Shown here: positions 5,415 to 15,065 of the stretch, one piece after another
Layout of the letters: each line of letters starts with the position of its first letter
How positions within the stretch are numbered: the stretch's first letter is position 1
Program-made: the position numbers and the translations under genes
The notes under the pieces: generated by a model
Databases searched by the model: none
Seen by the model: only the letters and a program-made list of their open reading frames with translations
What the model was told of the DNA's origin: nothing
NCBI GenBank assembly: GCA_017792345.1
Contig: CP051228.1
Span: 3,502,148 to 3,566,147 of the forward strand
Origin: Mesoflavibacter sp.
GTDB taxonomy: Bacteria; Pseudomonadota; Alphaproteobacteria; UBA8366; Aestuariispiraceae
Direction of reading: 5' to 3'
Length of the DNA stretch: 64,000 bases

Positions 5415-6320
5415 ATGCGGCATCAAGCGGTCGACCGGACCGGTCAGATGGAAATCTTTGCCCGCGTGGTGGAAACCGGCAGCTTTTCCGCCGCGGCCCA
5501 TCAACTGAAGATCGCGCCGTCGACGGTCAGTAAGCTGATCGGGCGGCTGGAATCTCGCCTGCGTACCCGATTGTTTCAACGATCTACCCGGGGGCTACAT
5601 CTGACCGATGAAGGAAAAGCCTTCTATCGGCGATGCACGGCAATCCTGAATGATATCGCCGCGGCGGAGGAAGAGGCGGCGGCCGGGGATGTTCCCACCG
5701 GGCGCTTGCGGGTCAGCGTTAATGTGCCGGTCGGTCACGCATTCCTACTACCGGCCATTCCGGCCTTTACCGCACGATATCCGCAAGTCTGCCTGGATCT
5801 TGTTCTGACGGATGGGATTGACGATCTTGTGACCGGCGGCGCGGATATTGCGATCCGTACGGGCCCGTTGCCTGCCTCGAGCCTGATTGCCCGAAAGCTT
5901 GGGGACAGTCGTCTCTGCGTCGTCGGATCTCCGGTCTATTTTGAATGGTCAGGCACTCCAAATCGGCCGGCAGATTTGGAAGCGCACTCCTGTTTGGATT
6001 TCACCTTTCCGCGGGAAGAGACAGGATGGCCCTTCCGCATCGACGGGGGGCGGCGCATGGTTAGGCCCAAGGGAAAGCTGCGGGGGGCTGATGGGGAGAC
6101 CGTAAGGCGACTGGCCCTTTCCGGTGCGGGGATCGCGCGGTTGGCGGAATTTCAGGTCGCGCAGGATATTGCTAGCGGCGATCTTGTTGAGGTCTTGCGC
6201 GACTTCGATTCCGGTGATCGGTTGGATGTTCACGTAGTCTATGCCGGAAGCGCCCGTCAATTGCCGGCCCGGGCGCGGGTCTTTATCGACTTTCTTGTTC
6301 AATCGGTTCGGATTTCCTGA
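5415..6320 (+). CDS. LysR-family transcriptional regulator
   Basis: DNA-binding regulator of 301 residues. The N-terminal winged helix-turn-helix reads MEIFARVVETGSFSAAAHQL followed by STVSKLIGRLESRLRTRLFQR. The C-terminal part is a periplasmic-binding-protein-like effector domain with the CrgA/AaeR-like segment GRLRVSVNVPVGHAFLLPAIP and DLVLTDGIDDLVTGGADIAIR. The gene is divergent from the aldo/keto reductase, so that gene is its likely target. Its 3-prime end overlaps the convergent glycosyltransferase gene by 38 bases. The inducer is unknown. Confidence 0.93.
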   Translation: MRHQAVDRTGQMEIFARVVETGSFSAAAHQLKIAPSTVSKLIGRLESRLRTRLFQRSTRGLHLTDEGKAFYRRCTAILNDIAAAEEEAAAGDVPTGRLRVSVNVPVGHAFLLPAIPAFTARYPQVCLDLVLTDGIDDLVTGGADIAIRTGPLPASSLIARKLGDSRLCVVGSPVYFEWSGTPNRPADLEAHSCLDFTFPREETGWPFRIDGGRRMVRPKGKLRGADGETVRRLALSGAGIARLAEFQVAQDIASGDLVEVLRDFDSGDRLDVHVVYAGSARQLPARARVFIDFLVQSVRIS

Positions 6321-7107
6321 CCGCCGCTGTTTTCTGGGCCTCTTCGGCGATCCACTTCATCCGGTGGGGATGCGCGTCGTTTTTGGGGTTGAGCCGGTAA
6401 TAGCTGGTTGCCTTGCGCGACTCTCCGGCCCGGAAATGGCGTTTCAGCGTGTCGAAGATCAGTCGGTCCGGCGGCAGGTGGATATTGTCCTTGGACCCGG
6501 AGATCGACCAAAGCCGCAGGACCGGTTCGCAGGCCACCTTGTCTATCATCAGGCAATTCGGATCGACGAAGCCGTCCAGTACCTTGGCGTAGACGCCGCG
6601 GCCGGGGCCGACGGATTCCCAACGGTCTAGGCAGGCCGGCAGGTCCGTTCCCGGATCGACATACCAGCGATAGCAATAGGCCCAGTCTTTTCCGGCGATG
6701 GCCTCGCGCAGATGGAACAGATGGGATTCGTGCAGCCAATTGTCGTCGTCCAGATAGGCGACATAGCGGCTGTGGGCCAGATAGCTCATCACCGTGCGCA
6801 GCGCCCCGCAATCCAACGCCGCATGCATACCGCCGCTCCGGTTCGACGTCGAATATCCGGGATCGACGACGGTTATCTGGACATTGTCGGGACATTCCTG
6901 TTTCAGCGTGTCCAGCATGCCGCGGGGCGCATCGGCCGGACAGTCCACGCCGATCAGAACCTGGATACGCCCGACACCGCGTTGCCCGAATACGGATCGG
7001 ACGGCCTGCGGCAGCGTTTCGCGCAGCACGGTCGGAATGACGATCGCGGCGTCGAAACGCGGGGTGTTGCCGGGCGGCGGATGGTCGGGATCCGGAATGC
7101 CTGCCAT
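6283..7107 (-). CDS. Family-2-like glycosyltransferase, last gene of the TerY-P operon
   Basis: Predicted GT-A-fold nucleotide-sugar transferase of 274 residues. The N-terminus has AAIVIPTVLRETLPQAVRSVF (about 20-40), typical of family-2 enzymes. A metal-binding DxD equivalent lies in YVAYLDDDNWLHESHL (Asp120-122), preceded by YSTSNRSGGMHAALD. No membrane segment is evident, so it is probably cytoplasmic. A site resembling AAGGT precedes the ATG. The gene starts 18 bases after the kinase-like gene, on the same strand, and so belongs to the vWA-PP2C-kinase operon. A transferase is not part of the core triad as I know it. Donor and acceptor are unknown. A general GT-A-fold protein of other function is possible. 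Confidence 0.75.
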   Translation of the reverse strand: MAGIPDPDHPPPGNTPRFDAAIVIPTVLRETLPQAVRSVFGQRGVGRIQVLIGVDCPADAPRGMLDTLKQECPDNVQITVVDPGYSTSNRSGGMHAALDCGALRTVMSYLAHSRYVAYLDDDNWLHESHLFHLREAIAGKDWAYCYRWYVDPGTDLPACLDRWESVGPGRGVYAKVLDGFVDPNCLMIDKVACEPVLRLWSISGSKDNIHLPPDRLIFDTLKRHFRAGESRKATSYYRLNPKNDAHPHRMKWIAEEAQKTAAVRKSEPIEQESR

Positions 7108-7125
7108 CGTACCTTGCCTCTGGAC

Positions 7126-8964
7126 CTATCCGGCCGCCGGGGCGGGGGTCAGGAAGCCACCCGCCGCCGCGCCGATCGTCCGCGCCCGTTTCGGGGCCGG
7201 CTTGATGCGGACAGACCCCGTGTCGGAAGCATGCAACTCGACGATGACACGGCTTTCAGGTTGATCGAAAGGAAAGGCGGCGGTGCCCCGAAGCCGCTGT
7301 GCCGGAACAGTCACAAGTAGGGTACCGGTCAGACTGTCGATCAGGGACAGCGCCGGGATTCGGCCGGGCTTTTCCGCGGTCAGAATCAATCGCGCCGGTC
7401 GCAATCCGTGCCATCCGCCCTCGACACGATAGGAGATCGACGTCGGCGTCGGTCCGGCTGCTGCATCGACCGGCGGGGGCGCTATGGAGCGGGCCGAGGG
7501 CATCAGCAGAGGCACATGCCGCTCCGCCTCGATCAGGACCGGCACCGGCCGGGCTGTCGGCGTCGGTGCGGGCGGAATATCCAGCGCGGCGGCGGCAATG
7601 CGGCGGACGGAGGCCGGGATCGTCTCCCCCTCGATATGCTCATGCCGGAAAAGCCGACCGTCCAGCAGTTGCGGCAGATCGTCGGCCAGGGCCGCGAGGC
7701 CCTGCACATCCTCAGGGTGCCGCTCCAACGCGGCCTGCCAGCGGTCCGCGGCGTCGATGGCGTCGCGCAACTCCGTCATGCGGTCGTGCAGGTGTTTCAG
7801 ATCGGCGGCGCGGGCCAGAACCGGGTTCTCGAACCACAGTTCGACGGCCATGCGCGTATCACCCCGCGCCATGGCCCGCTCGAAGGCCAGGATCAGCGGC
7901 GCGAACGGATCGCGGGCGGTGGGCGGTGCCGGGAAGGGATCGGGCAAGCCAGCCTCCGCCCGGGCGCACCAGGGGCAAGCCTTTAGCGCGGCATCGTGAT
8001 GGTGGTGCGGTTTGCGGGCGCAGCTTTCCAGATCGGCCAGCGCGATGCACAGCGCCTCTTGCCATTCGGCGGCGCTGGGCCGGGCATCCGGGTCCTTGTG
8101 TCCGGCGATGAAGGCGCGCCGGAACAGGGCGGCCAGGCCGGGGGCCAATTCGTCCGGCGCGACCATGCCCGGTACCGGCCGAAGTTTCGCGCCAGGCCGG
8201 AACGGCCAGTCGCCGCTGCGGATCAGTTGATCGCGCGGCGGTGGGTCGCCCGCGCCCATCCATTCCCCGGTCCAGGGATGGGCGCCGGTCAGCAGGTGAT
8301 AGATCAGGACCGCCAGGCCGAACCGGTCCGACCGGACGTCGCGTGGGTGCTCGTCGAACCGCCGGCCGATCCATTCCGGCGCGGTATGGCCTTCGCTGCC
8401 GACCGTGCACAGATGGGCCACACCGTCCGGCCCGTCAATCTGCACGGAATCGCAGTCGATCATTGTCGCAAGTGCGCGTCCGCCGACCAGAATATTCTCC
8501 GGCCTGACGTCGCCGACCACGATGTCCAGATCGTGCAGATAGTCGAACAGGAAAGCGACATTGGCGGCGACGGCATGCAGGAAATGCCAATCCATCTCCG
8601 CCGCCCGGCGCGCCCGCAGTTTCGGATTGGCCAACGCGGTCAGGCTGCGGGCGTCGGCGACGGCGGGCAGGATCGTTCCTGCCGCGTCTCCAGCCGCGTT
8701 CCAGACCGTTGAGACCGGCCAGGCGAAGTTCACATGCCTTGCATCCAGGGACGGGTCCTGCGGCGCCAGGGCCGGCAGAACCCTCAATTTCGCGCGCAGC
8801 CGAGCGGAGGGCGCATGGTGCAGCTTGATCAGCCGTCCGGGATCGTTGGCGTCGCGGAAAACCGTGGCTTCGCCGCTGTCGCCGATCCGCTCTCCCAGAG
8901 AGAGCCGCACCCCGTTATCGTCAAACAGGTCGGGTCGGGGAATGTTCGACGGTCGGATCGCCAT
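7126..8964 (-). CDS. Ser/Thr protein-kinase-like protein with zinc-ribbon-like motif (TerY-P triad kinase)
   Basis: A 612-residue protein with an N-terminal kinase fold. Features are a degenerate glycine loop GERIGDSGEATVF (24-36), the likely ATP lysine in RLIKLHH (K47), and a catalytic loop VVGDVRPENIL (D152, N157). IDCDS (169-173) stands in the DFG position, with TAPEW (194-198) and SDRFG (212-216) after it. HRD is replaced by VGD, and DFG by DCD. A Cys/His cluster follows the kinase (C315, a HHHH run at 320-323, C330 and C333 in CPWC), as expected for the zinc ribbon of TerY-P kinases. The rest is an Ala/Pro-rich linker and a beta-rich C-terminal domain. It lies 9 bases after the PP2C gene. 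Catalytic activity is probable but not certain. Confidence 0.82.
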   Translation of the reverse strand: MAIRPSNIPRPDLFDDNGVRLSLGERIGDSGEATVFRDANDPGRLIKLHHAPSARLRAKLRVLPALAPQDPSLDARHVNFAWPVSTVWNAAGDAAGTILPAVADARSLTALANPKLRARRAAEMDWHFLHAVAANVAFLFDYLHDLDIVVGDVRPENILVGGRALATMIDCDSVQIDGPDGVAHLCTVGSEGHTAPEWIGRRFDEHPRDVRSDRFGLAVLIYHLLTGAHPWTGEWMGAGDPPPRDQLIRSGDWPFRPGAKLRPVPGMVAPDELAPGLAALFRRAFIAGHKDPDARPSAAEWQEALCIALADLESCARKPHHHHDAALKACPWCARAEAGLPDPFPAPPTARDPFAPLILAFERAMARGDTRMAVELWFENPVLARAADLKHLHDRMTELRDAIDAADRWQAALERHPEDVQGLAALADDLPQLLDGRLFRHEHIEGETIPASVRRIAAAALDIPPAPTPTARPVPVLIEAERHVPLLMPSARSIAPPPVDAAAGPTPTSISYRVEGGWHGLRPARLILTAEKPGRIPALSLIDSLTGTLLVTVPAQRLRGTAAFPFDQPESRVIVELHASDTGSVRIKPAPKRARTIGAAAGGFLTPAPAAG

Positions 8965-8973
8965 TGCCGCGCC

Positions 8974-9750
8974 TCAGCCGTCCAGGCCGCGCCAGCCGCA
9001 GACCATCAGCGTCAGGTCGTCTTCGACCTTGGCGGACAGGCGATCCGACGCCAGGAAGGCGCGGATACCGTCATGCACCTCCAGCGCGCTGCCGGATTGG
9101 CGGGTGAAAAGGTCGATGGGCGAAAAGAAGGGGGCGTGCGGCGTCTGTGCGCGATTGTCGACCGACACGGCGGCCAGACCGTCGGTGGCCGCACTGACGA
9201 ACCGTACCGGACCTTCCAGGGAGCGAACGCGCAGACGATCGGCCGCATCGGGATCGGTCACGAAGCTAGTCTCATTTGCGTACTCGCCGCGATCCGGCTG
9301 GATCAGCAGGGTGTAATCCTGATGCGACAGGCGCGCGACAACGATGCCATCCCCGATTTGGGCTACCGATACGCCATTCGGGGCCAAGGCTACGACCGTC
9401 AGGGTGCAGGCCAGGTCGTCGAGCGACAACCGGTTGTCGTTGGCTGTTTCGCGAATGGCGGACTGAACCGTGTTGGTGAGACCGTCGAACAGGCGTTCCG
9501 GCGACAGGCGGCTGACCGCGCCGCGCAGGCCGGGGGCATCCGCGATGCGCTCGCGGATCCAGGGCAGGGCGGCGTCGACGGCGGCGCGCGCGCCCAGATG
9601 GCTGAAGCGGGCCGATCCCGCGCCGTCGGCGAAGGCGGCGATCACGGTGTTCTCGTCAGGCAGAGCCAGGCGCCCGAAATCCTGGCAGGGAATGCCCGCG
9701 CGGCGGTGCGATGCGCCTTGCCGGTAGTCGAGGGCCGCCATCCAGGACAT
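8974..9750 (-). CDS. PP2C-family Ser/Thr phosphatase (TerY-P triad)
   Basis: Metal-dependent protein phosphatase of 258 residues. The PP2C motifs appear in order: CQDFG (Asp24), AAFADGAGSARFS (Asp42-Gly43), VSVAQIGDGIVVARL, VSAATDGLAAV and the last metal ligand in VEDDLTLMV. It has no signal peptide or membrane segment, so it is cytoplasmic. An AGGAGG stretch precedes the ATG at 9750 at a long spacing; the ATG at 9741 is an alternative start. It sits between the vWA gene (19 bases upstream) and the kinase gene (9 bases downstream), so the obvious inference is that it dephosphorylates targets of that kinase, possibly the vWA protein. Confidence 0.88.
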   Translation of the reverse strand: MSWMAALDYRQGASHRRAGIPCQDFGRLALPDENTVIAAFADGAGSARFSHLGARAAVDAALPWIRERIADAPGLRGAVSRLSPERLFDGLTNTVQSAIRETANDNRLSLDDLACTLTVVALAPNGVSVAQIGDGIVVARLSHQDYTLLIQPDRGEYANETSFVTDPDAADRLRVRSLEGPVRFVSAATDGLAAVSVDNRAQTPHAPFFSPIDLFTRQSGSALEVHDGIRAFLASDRLSAKVEDDLTLMVCGWRGLDG

Positions 9751-9769
9751 GATCGCCGTGCCTCCTCGC

Positions 9770-10441
9770 CTAGGGGTGAATTTCCGCCCAGCCGTGAACC
9801 GGCGGCAGGGCCAGGGTTTCGCCGCCGATGCGGCTCATGGATACGCGCCGCACACTGGCGGACAGCCATCGGAACAGATCGCGGAACATCAGGCCGCGCA
9901 GCATCAGCGGCGGCCGGTTCGGGGAGGAGATTTCGCGCAGGATATCCATATCCGCGCCCTGAACCCCGACGGTGAAGAAGGTTGCGCGGCCGGTCAGGTC
10001 CGCTTCCTGCATGCGCATGGCCGCGTGCTGCCAGGCTTCGCCGTCCGTAGGCGCGCCATCCGTGATCAGGAAAATCCAGGGTCGGTAGTAATGTATCCCG
10101 TTGGAGCGATAGACCGCCTTGCGCGCTTCCACCATGCGCAGTCCCAGGTCCATGGCCTCGCCCATGGGCGTGTTCCCGGATGCCTCCAATTGCGGGGGGC
10201 CCAATTCGTCGACCGTCACGAAGTCCTGGACCATACGCACATCGCCGCCGAAAGCGACAATCGATAACTCGACCCTGAGGCTCGCCAATTCGTCGGACAG
10301 GATGTGGTGCTGGAAAGAGCGCAGCCCGGCATTCAGCTCGGCAATCGGTTCGCCGCGCATCGATGCCGACGTGTCCAGCAGCAATGCCACCGGACACCGG
10401 TTCTCCGGATTGTGAACGAACTCGGGAAGGCCAAGTCCCAT
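9770..10441 (-). CDS. TerY-like von Willebrand factor A domain protein
   Basis: A single vWA domain of 223 residues, first gene of the four-gene operon. The MIDAS metal site is intact: DTSAS (23-27), Thr91 in GNTPMGEAM and Asp128 in FLITDGAPTDGE. This matches TerY-type proteins, which are stand-alone intracellular vWA domains in tellurite-resistance-like and stress modules. A longer frame begins at a GTG at 10519 but has a weak ribosome site and adds 26 residues not expected for the family, so I chose the ATG at 10441. No other ter genes (terB, C, D, E, Z) lie in this window. Confidence 0.85.
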   Translation of the reverse strand: MGLGLPEFVHNPENRCPVALLLDTSASMRGEPIAELNAGLRSFQHHILSDELASLRVELSIVAFGGDVRMVQDFVTVDELGPPQLEASGNTPMGEAMDLGLRMVEARKAVYRSNGIHYYRPWIFLITDGAPTDGEAWQHAAMRMQEADLTGRATFFTVGVQGADMDILREISSPNRPPLMLRGLMFRDLFRWLSASVRRVSMSRIGGETLALPPVHGWAEIHP

Positions 10442-10685
10442 GCCGTCTCGTTCCCGTCTTTCGATAACCACCAGATCGACGCCCGAATCGCCTGCCAGGG
10501 TGTAGGGCGCCCCAATCACTTGCCGATTCGTTCAGCAAGTTTTGTGCCAGCATATCAAGTTATTTTAGATATTGAACAGTTAATCTCTATAAATCTAGAA
10601 GGCCGAATCCCTATCGATACATCAGGAAATTGAAGATTCCCTGAATCCGCTAAGGATTCGTCTCAAATAGAGATCTGTTTTCTGG
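10442..10685 (-). promoter_or_regulatory. AT-rich leader of the TerY-P operon
   Basis: The spacer between the vWA gene and the desaturase gene is much richer in A+T than the surrounding coding DNA, especially 10550-10620. It must hold the promoter of the downstream operon. I could not pick one convincing -35/-10 pair. A short hairpin GAATCC-gctaa-GGATTC lies at 10643-10659, just after the desaturase stop codon. It lacks a clear U-tract, so it is only a weak terminator candidate. Confidence 0.35.
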
Positions 10686-11588
10686 CTAGCTCTGGCCGGC
10701 GGGACTGATGTCGGCAGGCGTGACGGCGGCCTTCCGTTCGTTCCGGAACGGCTGTGCCAACTGTCCCAGGAAATCATCGGGCATCGGCCCGTCGATACCG
10801 ATATCGACCGGCGGGCGATAGGACGCGTTGTAATAAGTGCCGAACAGAAGGTCGAACAGGACGAGGTTTTCGCCGTAATTCTTGTTGCCCTCGCGCAGAT
10901 CCTTGGAATGGTGGAACCGGTGCAGCGTGGGCGTATTGAAGACATAGGACAGCCAGCCGAACCGCATATCGACATTACAATGGGTCAGCATGCCGATGAA
11001 GGCGGTGGTTGCGCTGGTCAACTTGAAGACTTCGATCGGCGCGCCCGCGAGGAACAGCAGCGGCTGGCTCAGCAGGATCGAAACCGCCGTGTCGACGAAG
11101 TGAAAGCGGCCGGTGTTAATAAAGCTCAACCGTTTGGCGCTGTGATGGACGGCGTGAAAACGCCAGAACAGGGGCACTTCGTGGGACAGCCGGTGGGCGG
11201 CGTAGAGGCCGGCCTCGATCACGACCAGGCCCAGTGCGACCTGTGCCAGCAACGGCCATTCGGTCGGCCAGATGTTCAGGCCGGATTCCGCGAAGTTTTC
11301 GGCCAAGCCGAAAACCGCGCCGACGACGATCAATACCTGCGCGACGCCCTTGCTCAACGCGGTATGCGCCAGATCGACCCAGATCTGTCCGTCGTTCTTC
11401 AGCCAGGCCCGCTCGAAGGGCAGGGCCCGCTCGGCAAAAAACAGCACGACTGCCAGCGCCAGATAGGCAATGTTGAACAGCAGAAAGCCACTGTCGTGCA
11501 GAACGCCGTAAATCGTCGTGCCGAGGCAGAGCGCGAGGAGCCCGGGCCAAAGCCCGTACCGAACCAACGTCGTCGTAATATGTCGCAT
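10686..11588 (-). CDS. Sterol desaturase / fatty acid hydroxylase superfamily membrane protein
   Basis: Integral-membrane di-iron oxygenase of 300 residues. Hydrophobic segments fill the N-terminal half. The histidine clusters are HRLSHEVPLFWRFHAVHHS (two boxes) and, near the C-terminus, LHRFHHSKDLREGNKNYGENL. These are the metal ligands of the family, which hydroxylates or desaturates lipids such as sterols, fatty acids and carotenoids. A substrate cannot be assigned. It lies just downstream of hpnN on the same strand (138 bases apart), so a hopanoid or other membrane-lipid role is possible. The ATG start has only a weak ribosome site. Confidence 0.87.
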   Translation of the reverse strand: MRHITTTLVRYGLWPGLLALCLGTTIYGVLHDSGFLLFNIAYLALAVVLFFAERALPFERAWLKNDGQIWVDLAHTALSKGVAQVLIVVGAVFGLAENFAESGLNIWPTEWPLLAQVALGLVVIEAGLYAAHRLSHEVPLFWRFHAVHHSAKRLSFINTGRFHFVDTAVSILLSQPLLFLAGAPIEVFKLTSATTAFIGMLTHCNVDMRFGWLSYVFNTPTLHRFHHSKDLREGNKNYGENLVLFDLLFGTYYNASYRPPVDIGIDGPMPDDFLGQLAQPFRNERKAAVTPADISPAGQS

Positions 11589-11726
11589 TCGGAATCCGTC
11601 GCCGATTGAGCGTGAGTGACACCGACAACGGAAACTGCCGGCTGAACAAAATGGGCCGCACAGAGTGGTGTGTGCGGTGCAGCAGGCTATTTGTTACGAA
11701 TCGACGTAGTTTTCAAGTCGTTCTGT

Positions 11727-14330
11727 TTAAATTTGCCGAATATGCGCCCTATCCGTGCCGAGCCAGGCGAGCAGCGCCGGCAGAACGATCATTGTCGATA
11801 AAATGATCGCAATCATAGCGACGCTGAGCAGCATTCCCATGCTGGAAATCCCTGAATTACTTACGATTCCCAGGGTTGCGAAGGAGGCGAGGGTGGTCCC
11901 TCCGCTGAGCAGAACAGCCCGGGGTGTGGAGGACTTCAGAACGGCGCTCAAGTCGCCCTCTTCACGCCACCTTGCCACAAAATGAACACCATTATCGACC
12001 CCGAGCCCCAGGATAAGTGGCAAAACGATCACATTCGCGACGTTGAACGGGATGCCGGCCAGGACGCCGAAAGCCGTCGTTGCCGCCCCGGCCAGGATCA
12101 GGGGAATGAGAACCAGGATGGCGTCGCGCAGGCTGCGCAACCGCCAGATCAGGAAGGCCAGGATCACGCCCAGAGCGATTACGACCGCCTGCTGAAAGGC
12201 GGCGACGACGATCTTGCCGGTTCCCGCTTCCAGCACAGGTCGGCCGGTGGCATCGGGATACAGGGCGGTCACCGCTTCGACGAATTCACCCAGCGCCGAG
12301 AAATCCCGCAGGTCCTCCTTCGGCAGGACGGCGATCCGCACACCGCCATCCGGCGCGACATACCGGTCGACCATGTCTTGTGGCAGGTCCGACAGCGTGA
12401 AGGCACGGGCCCCCAACGCTTCCTTCAATCCTTCCAGCGTGACACGCAGGGGCGTGGTCAGCCGGTCCTCAAACGCCGCAGCGTCCGCGTCGTCCAATGC
12501 GTTCAGCCCATCGACAAGCCGTTCGCGGCTCTCCGGCGGCAGGTCGTCCCAGGATTGTGCGCGCAGATCGCGTAAGGCAGCCAGTGCCCCGTCTTCGCCG
12601 GCGGCGCCATTGGCCGAGGGAGGCGTTAGCGCCGGCCAGAGGAAGACCGCCGCTTCTTCAATCATCGCCTGCTTCAGGTCCGCTTCGGCCGGAACGAGGT
12701 CATCCAGCGTCCGCACACTGGCGACTTCCGGCAGGGCGCGCAGTCTGTTCGCCGCCGCTTCGGCCGCCGGCCGGTCGGCGAATGGGATAGACAGGGTATA
12801 GGGGGTGATCGCGCCATCCTGCTGCAGGTCGATCAAGGTCTGGACGGATTCCGCTTTCGGGTCCTTGAGCGCCAACGTGTTGAAGTCGAATTCCGCCCGG
12901 GCCGACAGGGCGAGCGCCGCAATCGATAGGATGGCAGCCGCCACCACGACCGGCCGCTTCCGTCGATCGATCCAGCCACCGACCGCACCGCCGCCCGGCA
13001 TTGTGGCATGTGCGCCGCCAGGAAGCCGCATCAGGCTGAACAGGGCCGGAAGGACGGTCAAGCTGACGATCAGCGCCAGGACCATCCCGGCGGCCGCGAT
13101 CTGTCCCAATTCCGCCAAGCCCCGGTAATCGGTGGGCCAGAAGGACAGGAACCCGACCGCCGATGTCACCGCACAGAGCCCCAGAGTCCCACCGCAACTG
13201 GCCGCGGATCGCCTGGCCGCGCCCGGCGCGTCGGGTGTGTTCGTAGCTTCTTCCCGATAGCGAAGGGCATAGTGGATTGCGAAATCGATGCCCAGCCCGA
13301 TGAAGAGCACAGAGAAGACGATCGACAGAAGTGTCAGGGAGCCGACCGCCAGTGTCGCGAAGCCGAAGGTCCAGGCCAAGCCGCAGAACAATGCGCCAAA
13401 ACAGCCAACGATAGCGCGCCAGGACCGGAATCCGACGATGAGCACGAAGGCCAGCAAGGTAAGCGACAGGGCCCCCGCCATTTGGATATCCGCAACGGCG
13501 TGGGTCATTTCCTCCTTCGACAAGGGCCCCCGCCCGGTCAGGCGCATCGAAATGCCGCGCGCCTCGAAACCCAGATCGCGCGCTGCGGCCCGAATCAGGC
13601 CGGTACCGTCACCGCCGACAGCGCTTTCCTCCCCGTCGAGCCTGCCCTGAAGCAGGAGAATTCGGCGGTTCGACGCCAGATCCAACCCCGCATCCGGTCC
13701 AAGGGCAAAGCGGGTCCAGGACACGGAATTGGGGGCCCCTGACGCGGTTTCGCGCGCCGCCGTTTCGATCATTGCGGCCAGGGCCGTTCGCGCGCCTTGG
13801 ATTTCCGGGTCGTTCCCGCTGAGGGTCCGCATTCTGTCGGCCAGATCGGCAATGCCGCGCAGGCTGGGGTCCTGGGCCAGGATGGCGATGGCCGGCTCGG
13901 CAGCGGCCAGCCGATCGATTGCTTGTTCCAACGCGTCGGGCGTGAGATAGAGCAGCCCGTTCCGGCGTAGGAAGGGATCGGTGCCGGGCGCCCGGATGGC
14001 GTGAAAGACGCCGTTGTTCCGCGCTTCAAGTTCCGCCGCCAGTTCCATTTGTGCGGCCATGGCGGTTTCCGGACTGGGCGCGTCGATTACGGCAATGTTT
14101 GTGCGCCGGTCATAGGTAAAGCGGTCCTTATAGGCGTTGTAATTTTGCAGGAAGGGCACATCTTCCGGCAGGAGCGCATAGGCGTCCGGATTAAGCGACA
14201 GGTACCGGATGGCGCCGAGAACGGACAACACCGCGACCATCACGGCGGCCGCCAACACGACGAGAGGGCGCCGCGCGGAGAATTCGGACACCAGCGTCAT
14301 TCCGTGGCGGATTGGGTTCGTTTCTGTCAT
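11727..14330 (-). CDS. hpnN: MMPL/RND-type hopanoid transporter, HpnN-like
   Basis: An 867-residue RND-superfamily lipid transporter with two repeats. Each has one N-terminal membrane helix, a large periplasmic domain and a five-helix bundle. Readable parts are RRPLVVLAAAVMVAVLSVLGAIRYL at the start, the SSD-like bundle containing FIGLGIDFAIHYALRYREE, and the mirrored bundle with LILGLGVDNGVHFVARWREE near the end. Length and layout fit HpnN, which moves hopanoids to the outer membrane. The divergent MlaC/HpnM-like gene 93 bases away supports this, since hpnM and hpnN are commonly associated. Hopanoid biosynthesis genes are not in the window. A generic MMPL transporter is the alternative. Confidence 0.82.
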   Translation of the reverse strand: MTETNPIRHGMTLVSEFSARRPLVVLAAAVMVAVLSVLGAIRYLSLNPDAYALLPEDVPFLQNYNAYKDRFTYDRRTNIAVIDAPSPETAMAAQMELAAELEARNNGVFHAIRAPGTDPFLRRNGLLYLTPDALEQAIDRLAAAEPAIAILAQDPSLRGIADLADRMRTLSGNDPEIQGARTALAAMIETAARETASGAPNSVSWTRFALGPDAGLDLASNRRILLLQGRLDGEESAVGGDGTGLIRAAARDLGFEARGISMRLTGRGPLSKEEMTHAVADIQMAGALSLTLLAFVLIVGFRSWRAIVGCFGALFCGLAWTFGFATLAVGSLTLLSIVFSVLFIGLGIDFAIHYALRYREEATNTPDAPGAARRSAASCGGTLGLCAVTSAVGFLSFWPTDYRGLAELGQIAAAGMVLALIVSLTVLPALFSLMRLPGGAHATMPGGGAVGGWIDRRKRPVVVAAAILSIAALALSARAEFDFNTLALKDPKAESVQTLIDLQQDGAITPYTLSIPFADRPAAEAAANRLRALPEVASVRTLDDLVPAEADLKQAMIEEAAVFLWPALTPPSANGAAGEDGALAALRDLRAQSWDDLPPESRERLVDGLNALDDADAAAFEDRLTTPLRVTLEGLKEALGARAFTLSDLPQDMVDRYVAPDGGVRIAVLPKEDLRDFSALGEFVEAVTALYPDATGRPVLEAGTGKIVVAAFQQAVVIALGVILAFLIWRLRSLRDAILVLIPLILAGAATTAFGVLAGIPFNVANVIVLPLILGLGVDNGVHFVARWREEGDLSAVLKSSTPRAVLLSGGTTLASFATLGIVSNSGISSMGMLLSVAMIAIILSTMIVLPALLAWLGTDRAHIRQI

Positions 14331-14423
14331 ATGGCGGAGATATCGCGGGTCAAGACATTGGAAGCTTCGTGGGCCACGTTACGGGGAAACGGCACGCGAA
14401 CCAACATTTAGGAGTTTTTGTTG

Positions 14424-15065
14424 ATGGCACTTGTTTCTGGGACCTTGTCCCGACGTTCGTTCGTCGCGGCTGTTGCTGCAACCGGATTCGCGGTTTCGGC
14501 GCCGGTCGCCATCGCCGCGGGCACGCCTGCCAAACCCGCGGAGATCGTGGCCGCACTAGGCCAGGATTTGGGTAAGCTGGCCGGAGATTCCAAGGCCATG
14601 AATGGGGCACAGCGCCTGGACGCGGTCTCGGATCTGCTCCACCGATACTTCGATCTGCCGAAGATTGCGGCCAACACGATCGGCGCGCGTCGCTTCCGCG
14701 GTCTCAGCGAGAGTCAGCAGGCCGACTTTGTCGAGGCCTATACCCGCTTCACCGTCGCCAGCTACATCCGCCGTCTGCCGCAGTTTGACGCGACCGGGTT
14801 TGCCGTCGGCGCGGTGAACGACGGCCCGTCTGGATTGGCGGCCGTGCGTGCGACCTATTCCGGCCCTCAGTCCGGTCAATCCGTGCTGGATTTCGTGCTG
14901 ACCGATACGCCGAATGGATATCGGATCGTGGATCTGCGGATCGACGGCGATATCAGCGAGTTGGCGGTCCGCCGGGCTGAGGTCTCCAAGGTTCTGGACG
15001 ATAAGGGCTTCGACGGGCTGATCGCGCTGTTGCGCGACCGCACGGCGGCCCTGTCGGAAGGCTAG
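14424..15065 (+). CDS. MlaC/Ttg2D-family lipid-binding protein, HpnM-like, with Tat-type signal
   Basis: Periplasmic phospholipid- or hopanoid-binding protein of the MlaC (toluene tolerance Ttg2D) family, 213 residues. The N-terminus LSRRSFVAAVAATGFAVSAPVAIAAG looks like a twin-arginine signal peptide. The mature part has the family pattern FDLPKIAANTIGARRFRGLSESQQADFVEAYTRF and the tail VLDFVLTDTPNGYRIVDLRIDG. I chose the ATG at 14424 because GGAG lies 9 bases upstream; an in-frame TTG at 14418 is unlikely. It is divergent from hpnN, and a membrane protein gene follows 7 bases after its stop, probably co-transcribed. Confidence 0.85.
   Translation: MALVSGTLSRRSFVAAVAATGFAVSAPVAIAAGTPAKPAEIVAALGQDLGKLAGDSKAMNGAQRLDAVSDLLHRYFDLPKIAANTIGARRFRGLSESQQADFVEAYTRFTVASYIRRLPQFDATGFAVGAVNDGPSGLAAVRATYSGPQSGQSVLDFVLTDTPNGYRIVDLRIDGDISELAVRRAEVSKVLDDKGFDGLIALLRDRTAALSEG

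Follow-up and report, generated by a model that had tools for sequence, protein, structure and literature searches.

A putative YegL-PphC-YegI (TerY-P) phosphorylation switch in an alphaproteobacterial chromosome and the glycosyltransferase gene beside it

The window analyzed here, a 64,000-nt stretch of the Mesoflavibacter sp. contig CP051228.1 (assembly GCA_017792345.1; Alphaproteobacteria, Aestuariispiraceae), carries four adjacent minus-strand genes encoding a von Willebrand factor A (vWA) protein, a PP2C phosphatase, a Hanks-type kinase, and a glycosyltransferase (GT; Table 1). On the basis of sequence comparison and analogy to E. coli, we read the first three, with a probability of roughly 85%, as a reversible Ser/Thr phosphorylation switch of the YegL-PphC-YegI (TerY-P) type that holds one chromosomal place in the genus, and the GT as a gene separate from it. 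An earlier note on this DNA had described the four-gene layout and had counted the GT as a fourth member of one system. Upon our open reading frame (ORF) check, the layout, gene borders, and intergenic gaps (19, 9, and 18 bases between vWA and PP2C, PP2C and kinase, and kinase and GT, respectively) all stood.

The triad, its conserved core, and its variable tail

The TerY-P triad is defined, in the available text of PMC11090510, as a vWA protein, a PP2C phosphatase, and a kinase-zinc ribbon protein, and by their order, domains, and a zinc-ribbon-like cluster in the predicted kinase, the first three window genes fit this definition. They are homologous to yegL-pphC-yegI (b2073, b2072, b2070) of E. 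coli K-12, where the same three families lie in the same order and on the same strand, with pairwise identities of 54% (vWA to YegL), 32% (PP2C to PphC), and 31% (kinase to YegI). The alignment between the window kinase and YegI spans residues 13–340, including the Cys cluster as well as the kinase domain. All four window proteins scored above the curated Pfam cut-offs (E-values: VWA, 6.8e-10; PP2C_2, 3.2e-46; Pkinase, 5.2e-09; Glycos_transf_2, 9.5e-06), while an NCBIfam scan of the four returned no model reaching its cut-off. Given the agreement of order, domains, cluster, and E. coli homologues, the TerY-P assignment proposed in the earlier note for these three genes holds.

The core of the triad is marked by strongly conserved residues. 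Across 21 aligned vWA sequences, D23, S25, S27, and D128 are invariant and T91 nearly so, and the order of the motifs suggests that D23-x-S25-x-S27, T91, and D128 form a metal ion-dependent adhesion site (MIDAS). The phosphatase retains D24, D42-G43, D134, D190, and D245 in 16/16 aligned sequences, and the kinase retains K47, D152, N157, and D170, together with C315, H321, C330, and C333, in 13/13. The latter four residues form a cluster directly after the kinase domain (C315-x5-H321-x8-C330-P-W-C333), which is zinc-ribbon-like and a putative metal site. The C/H/C-x-x-C cluster was present in 28/28 kinases of a wider set (the window kinase, YegI, and 26 others), 24 by the pattern used and four with another residue replacing the P. 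This set leaves out the kinase of L102 (annotated in pieces) and those of G089, G163, and G384; of five loci obtained by a contig scan with the vWA sequence, L093 and L094 were dropped from the kinase count as duplicates of G009 and G010. Within the genus, the vWA protein is the most conserved of the three (83–95% identity, compared to 59–87% for PP2C and 55–78% for the kinase), perhaps because it must fit both partners. A sequence search of the PDB gave no match for the vWA or the PP2C protein.

The tail of the kinase is less readily assigned. The AlphaFold2 model of the whole protein (mean predicted local distance difference test score (pLDDT) 83.4; predicted template modelling score (pTM) 0.71) places helices up to residue ~461, a low-confidence stretch at 467–503, and a beta-rich domain at ~505–595 in the tail. 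Pfam detected no domain in this region, with no HHH match at E up to 1, and a fold search with the full-length kinase model yielded matches to the kinase head, the best by E-value in the PDB being PknB. No clear membrane helix was noted in the window kinase by hydropathy, which was used without a dedicated membrane-helix predictor (maximum of 1.44, versus 2.27 in YegI); the maxima in G009 (1.91) and G010 (1.62) lie near residue 90, inside the kinase head. As the tail lacks both the hydrophobic segment and the HHH match of YegI, the window kinase is probably soluble.

Other kinases in the comparison carry different tails. A hydrophobic stretch near residue 390–410 is present in L083–L085, L095, and L096, which align to YegI over the full length of the latter, and in four of the five plasmid kinases. 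The Pfam HHH domain matches below its cut-off in YegI, L083, and L099, is absent in the Xanthomonas kinase L095, and is named in two plasmid records, while the tails of a Trichormus plasmid kinase and of an Anaerolineales metagenome-assembled genome (MAG) kinase carry WD40 repeats and a double zinc ribbon, respectively. A fixed vWA-PP2C-kinase-CHCC core combined with tails that differ between lineages suggests that the input or the location of the switch would be set by the tail, with the kinase head and its CHCC cluster as the constant part.

Because E. coli YegI autophosphorylates and is dephosphorylated by PphC (PMC13232886, in its available text), we infer the corresponding activities for the window triad. 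The kinase would phosphorylate itself and one or more partners, the PP2C phosphatase would reverse the phosphorylation made by the kinase, and the vWA protein, as a predicted metal binder, may serve as a docking or sensing partner. The GT would be a separate, GT2-like enzyme encoded downstream, perhaps on the same transcript. For the E. coli switch, the available text of PMC13232886 gives neither an inducing condition nor a target beyond the kinase itself.

The kinase-PP2C-vWA block was found in 6/6 genomes of the genus set, comprising the window genome (G000) and G009–G013. In the five genomes that reach far enough (the window genome and G010–G013), EamA and malate synthase genes are always present on the kinase side of the block, as is TrkH in the window genome, G010, G011, and G013, though not in G012. 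The triad genes are tightly packed, overlapping by 4–25 bases or lying ≤19 bases apart in the eight genus and family genomes measured. A longer GTG start at position 10519 is available to the vWA gene of the window; its five orthologues in the genus, however, begin to align at the first residue given by the 10441 start, and their ORFs are likewise 223 a.a. in length. In a tree of the triad, G000 and G012 are joined with full support, as are G009–G011, with the placement of G013 left open.

Several observations weigh against the reading of the triad as a switch separate from the GT. No PP2C gene was present in the fetched stretch of the vWA-kinase loci of G176, G276, and G357 or of the kinase-only locus of G189, although the contigs of G176 (L080) and G357 (L079) begin ~400 bases before the vWA gene. 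The kinase gene is divergent from the vWA-PP2C pair in G134 (L082), and a further ORF of ~350 residues separates PP2C and kinase in G391 (L081). Lastly, the placement of the GT in the genus is not random, as it lies at the triad locus and on the same strand in two of the three genus lineages (G000/G012 and G013), with a gap of only 18 bases in the window.

Some further features of these loci were noted. In L077 (G276), L079 (G357), and L080 (G176), the kinase gene directly follows the vWA gene; the gene after the kinase in L079 encodes a pentapeptide-repeat protein by Pfam, and the next proteins after the kinase in L077 and L080 start alike. On the Rhizobium sp. T136 plasmid pT136b (L102, 2813–8292), the vWA and PP2C genes follow hxsB, hxsC, and hxsA after a gap of 27 bases, this upstream cluster representing His-Xaa-Ser radical-SAM maturation genes, with the kinase region annotated in pieces. 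Beside the triad in the window (10686–15065) lie FA_hydroxylase, MMPL-family, and MlaC-family genes by Pfam, a block conserved in G012. We take the MMPL/MlaC pair to resemble the hopanoid-transport pair HpnN/HpnM.

Table 1. Window coordinates of the four genes, the two parts of the kinase, and a candidate promoter site.
Feature	Position	Strand	Description
vWA gene	9770-10441	minus	223 a.a., YegL/TerY-like; Pfam VWA
PP2C phosphatase gene	8974-9750	minus	258 a.a., PphC-like; Pfam PP2C_2
Kinase gene	7126-8964	minus	612 a.a., Hanks-type with Cys/His cluster; Pfam Pkinase
GT gene	6283-7107	minus	274 a.a., GT-A; Pfam Glycos_transf_2
Kinase head and CHCC zinc-ribbon-like cluster	7966-8964	minus	Residues 1-333 of 612; from Pkinase match, YegI alignment, and invariant columns
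Kinase tail	7126-7965	minus	Residues 334-612; from AlphaFold2 model, hydropathy, and Pfam (no tail domain)
Promoter-like site upstream of vWA gene	10562-10589	minus	Weak, by position only; AT-rich gap after FA_hydroxylase gene

The glycosyltransferase and its linkage to the triad

Within the genus, the GT gene adjoins the triad in two of the six genomes, lies behind two further genes in one, and is found elsewhere in three. The gap between kinase and GT is 18 bases in the window and 64 in G012; in G013 it extends to 1008 bases and contains a Sulf_transp (PF04143) and a DUF6691 gene. Relatives of this gene pair also follow the kinase in G010 and G011, with no GT there, and a pair of the same type follows it in G009 before the contig ends. 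The GT of G010 instead has a sodium:alanine symporter gene on one side and a Vut_1-queuosine-synthesis stretch on the other. According to the printed gene lists and translations, gene lengths and order around the G009 copy are as in G010, and relatives of the G010 flanking genes occur on either side of the G011 copy, with further genes in between. In G010, triad and GT occupy separate contigs, at distances of 97 kb and 78 kb to the closest contig ends, which puts them ~175 kb or more apart. In a GT tree, a weakly supported branch (71/76) separates the genus copies from the others, with which a single origin of these copies is compatible. In the simplest history, the GT would have come to the locus early in the genus, and one branch would later have moved it or acquired it anew at another site. 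The strongest argument for a tie between GT and triad, though a modest one, is that they are linked in two of three branches.

Outside the genus, the two were not found together. We searched samples of the order (43 genomes, some incomplete; kinase E up to 1e-20, GT E up to 1e-10), the class (385 genomes; both E up to 1e-20), and the phylum (398 genomes; vWA E up to 1e-40), which overlap in part, the large samples scoring only the best candidates per genome; paired searches were taken to cover the same genomes, as sizes and listed handles agree. The order sample contained the kinase in eight genomes, the GT in 13, and both in six, namely the six of the window's genus. In the class sample, the kinase was present in 17 genomes, the GT in 13, and both in three, all from the same genus, and in the phylum sample the vWA protein occurred in eight genomes, the GT in four, and both only in the window genome. 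The GT was hence detected in 0/16 kinase-bearing genomes outside the genus (two from the order and 14 from the class sample). The absence of joint occurrence is also expected under independence, both genes being rare; it indicates that the triad can do without the GT and is no evidence of mutual avoidance.

Of the 16 kinase loci outside the genus, 13 were fetched; among them, the GT was present in none, vWA in 12, and a detectable PP2C in nine. No triad gene was near any of 16 GT copies outside the genus fetched with their flanks, some of which ended at contig ends; these represent 16 of 22 copies, with those of G015, G016, G019, G023, G557, and G744 left out due to short flanks. Complete triads with no GT in the fetched stretch were noted in G007 and G008 (same family), E. 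coli, two Xanthomonas, and the Anaerolineales MAG (a 4.4-kb contig). Six plasmid records were opened among 25 listed out of 2330 with a vWA match, all with PP2C adjoining vWA and five with one long third gene (641–682 a.a.); no annotated glycosyltransferase was near the plasmid vWA in these six, whose gene tables are incomplete. No TerY-P triad with a glycosyltransferase partner was found in the literature searched, where one paper mentions both, though for different gene clusters.

The proposal of a conserved fourth member is thus not borne out, the GT being adjacent in 2/6 genus members and in none of the 16 kinase-bearing genomes beyond. The earlier note had named two findings that would speak against its proposal: that the GT is not conserved next to the triad, which is largely what we observed, and that it belongs to the LysR side, which is excluded by orientation. 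The 3′ end of the GT gene overlaps that of the convergent LysR gene by 38 bases (6283–6320), and a GT convergent with LysR cannot share its transcript. Co-transcription with the triad may occur in the window genome. A promoter and terminator scan of the locus gave counts near chance (one promoter-like site, with 0.7 expected by chance, in the scanned region) and found no terminator-like site on the same strand between the four genes. Among the genomes searched, the GT is beside the triad only in the window's genus, and not in all of its members. It reads best as a lineage-local neighbor of the triad, apparently without a conserved functional tie.

The GT itself is predicted to be a GT-A, GT2-like enzyme with an acidic metal motif (D120-D121-D122, putative metal site), in which D120 and D121 are invariant among 21 aligned sequences. 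Its model has a GT-A fold (mean pLDDT 88.8) and is best matched by Foldseek to SpsA (PDB 1h7q, 1qg8; E 3.7e-11, TM-score 0.58 by query length), with which it shares 12–13% identity. A PDB sequence search gave weak matches only (best E 0.36). Searches of 72,556 plasmid and 50,697 phage records by tblastn (E up to 1e-5) were negative for the GT, and a plasmid- or phage-borne GT family was rejected on this ground, although a glycosyltransferase family in PHROG gives a weak match to it (20.2 bits). Among the relatives of the GT, that in L067 is fused to an S-adenosylmethionine (SAM) methyltransferase domain by Pfam, and that in L104 (G557:C117) forms part of an open frame of 2497 residues that may encode a large fusion enzyme. 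In the alignment, the copy in G011 (L063:8923-9681) is missing eight residues immediately behind the second D of the DDD motif and may be decayed. Among the few GT neighbors run against Pfam, one (in L070) is a group-1 glycosyltransferase gene.

What the switch may serve

Could the four genes nevertheless act as one unit, with the GT either controlled by kinase and phosphatase or itself glycosylating one of the triad proteins? The shared strand, the 18-base gap with no terminator-like site found between the genes, the occurrence of the GT at this place in G012 too and, two genes on, in G013, and the weakly supported grouping of genus copies (71/76) would all suit such a phospho-regulated glycan module. 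We consider it very unlikely, however, given that the GT is unlinked in 3/6 genus members (on separate contigs in G010), was found, at the search thresholds applied, in 0/16 other kinase-bearing genomes from the order and class samples, and co-occurs with the vWA protein only in the window genome among the 398 of the phylum sample. The distance from kinase to GT, moreover, is larger in G012 (64 bases) and G013 (1008 bases), in contrast to the triad genes with their overlaps or very short gaps. A narrower version, in which the beta-tailed, probably soluble kinase took the downstream GT as its effector, such that a TerY-P switch gates a glycan step in this genus, with the control acting in trans or lost where the GT lies elsewhere (G009–G011), is a very remote prospect in our view. 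If the GT were under triad control, it would provide a lead to a target of the switch, though the evidence is against this being general.

Anti-phage defense would be a purpose of the triad and compatible with a phosphorylation mechanism, and a vWA/phosphatase/kinase TerY-P system has been described as acting against T7-like phages (PMC7699616, available text), with TerY-P protecting P. aeruginosa PAO1 against phage (PMC10889362, available text). Relatives of the vWA protein also occur in 2330/72,556 plasmid records. Yet the anti-phage modules of stand-alone type in Gao et al. are described as kinase-OB fusions (PMC11090510), and the PADLOC STK_OB model gave 10.3 bits in the window; the chromosomal surroundings of the locus are maintained across the genus (EamA, malate synthase, and mostly TrkH), and a Pfam search of nine flanking window genes, one of which had no match, revealed no known defense gene. 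On balance, we find a defense role unlikely. The PADLOC TerY model scored 13.2 bits for the window vWA and 11.7 bits for E. coli YegL, so PADLOC is not deciding. The triad as common phage cargo was rejected, with vWA in only 3/50,697 phage records; PHROG families do match vWA, PP2C, and kinase. Least probable of all is a tellurite or metal stress module that depends on Ter proteins. The vWA family is TerY-like, and TerY-P has been described as involved in tellurite resistance (PMC11090510). TerD (Pfam PF02342), however, was matched in none of the 43 order genomes (E up to 0.001), on which ground a dependence on TerD-family proteins was rejected, and among the controls only Bacillus subtilis and Deinobacterium matched, while E. 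coli did not, though K-12 carries the triad. Presumably, PF02342 covers TerE and TerZ besides TerD. The absence of terBCDEZ remarked upon in the earlier note stands in its TerD-family part, terB and terC not having been searched. A link to TerD-family genes is described for some TerY-P triads and is not defining.

Comparison with known systems

The closest described anti-phage systems, the TerY-P-like kinase-OB modules (Gao et al. 2020, via the available text of PMC11090510), share the same three enzyme classes with the window, while the window kinase has no convincing OB-type match and a beta-rich tail in its model. Similarly, the TerY-P triad of CoCoNuT systems (PMC11090510) has vWA, PP2C, and kinase-zinc ribbon in common with the window, though no McrBC-type gene is present among the nine flanking genes run against Pfam. 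A triad on the Trichormus variabilis plasmid NZ_CP047243.1 (L098) displays the same order, with a PP2C, a C/H/C-x-W-C kinase, and a vWA protein 60% identical to that of the window, which is hence nearer to it than to YegL (54%). The kinase of this plasmid (L098:7470-9518) ends in a WD40 tail, unlike the window kinase.

In E. coli K-12, yegJ sits between pphC and yegI, whereas the window triad has no insert. The cluster spacing of YegI (C-x5-H-x8-C-P-W-C) is identical in the window kinase, and the two differ behind it, where YegI displays a hydrophobic stretch around residue 393 (hydropathy 2.27) and a sub-cut-off Pfam HHH match (20.1 of 27 bits) at 517–552, neither of which was found in the window kinase by the same tests. 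The locus thereby joins the E. coli yegL-pphC-yegI comparison as a fixed core whose tails may be YegI-like and hydrophobic, WD40, double zinc ribbon, or, as modeled here, beta-rich, and by its homology, the window triad is the predicted alphaproteobacterial counterpart of an already known type of switch.

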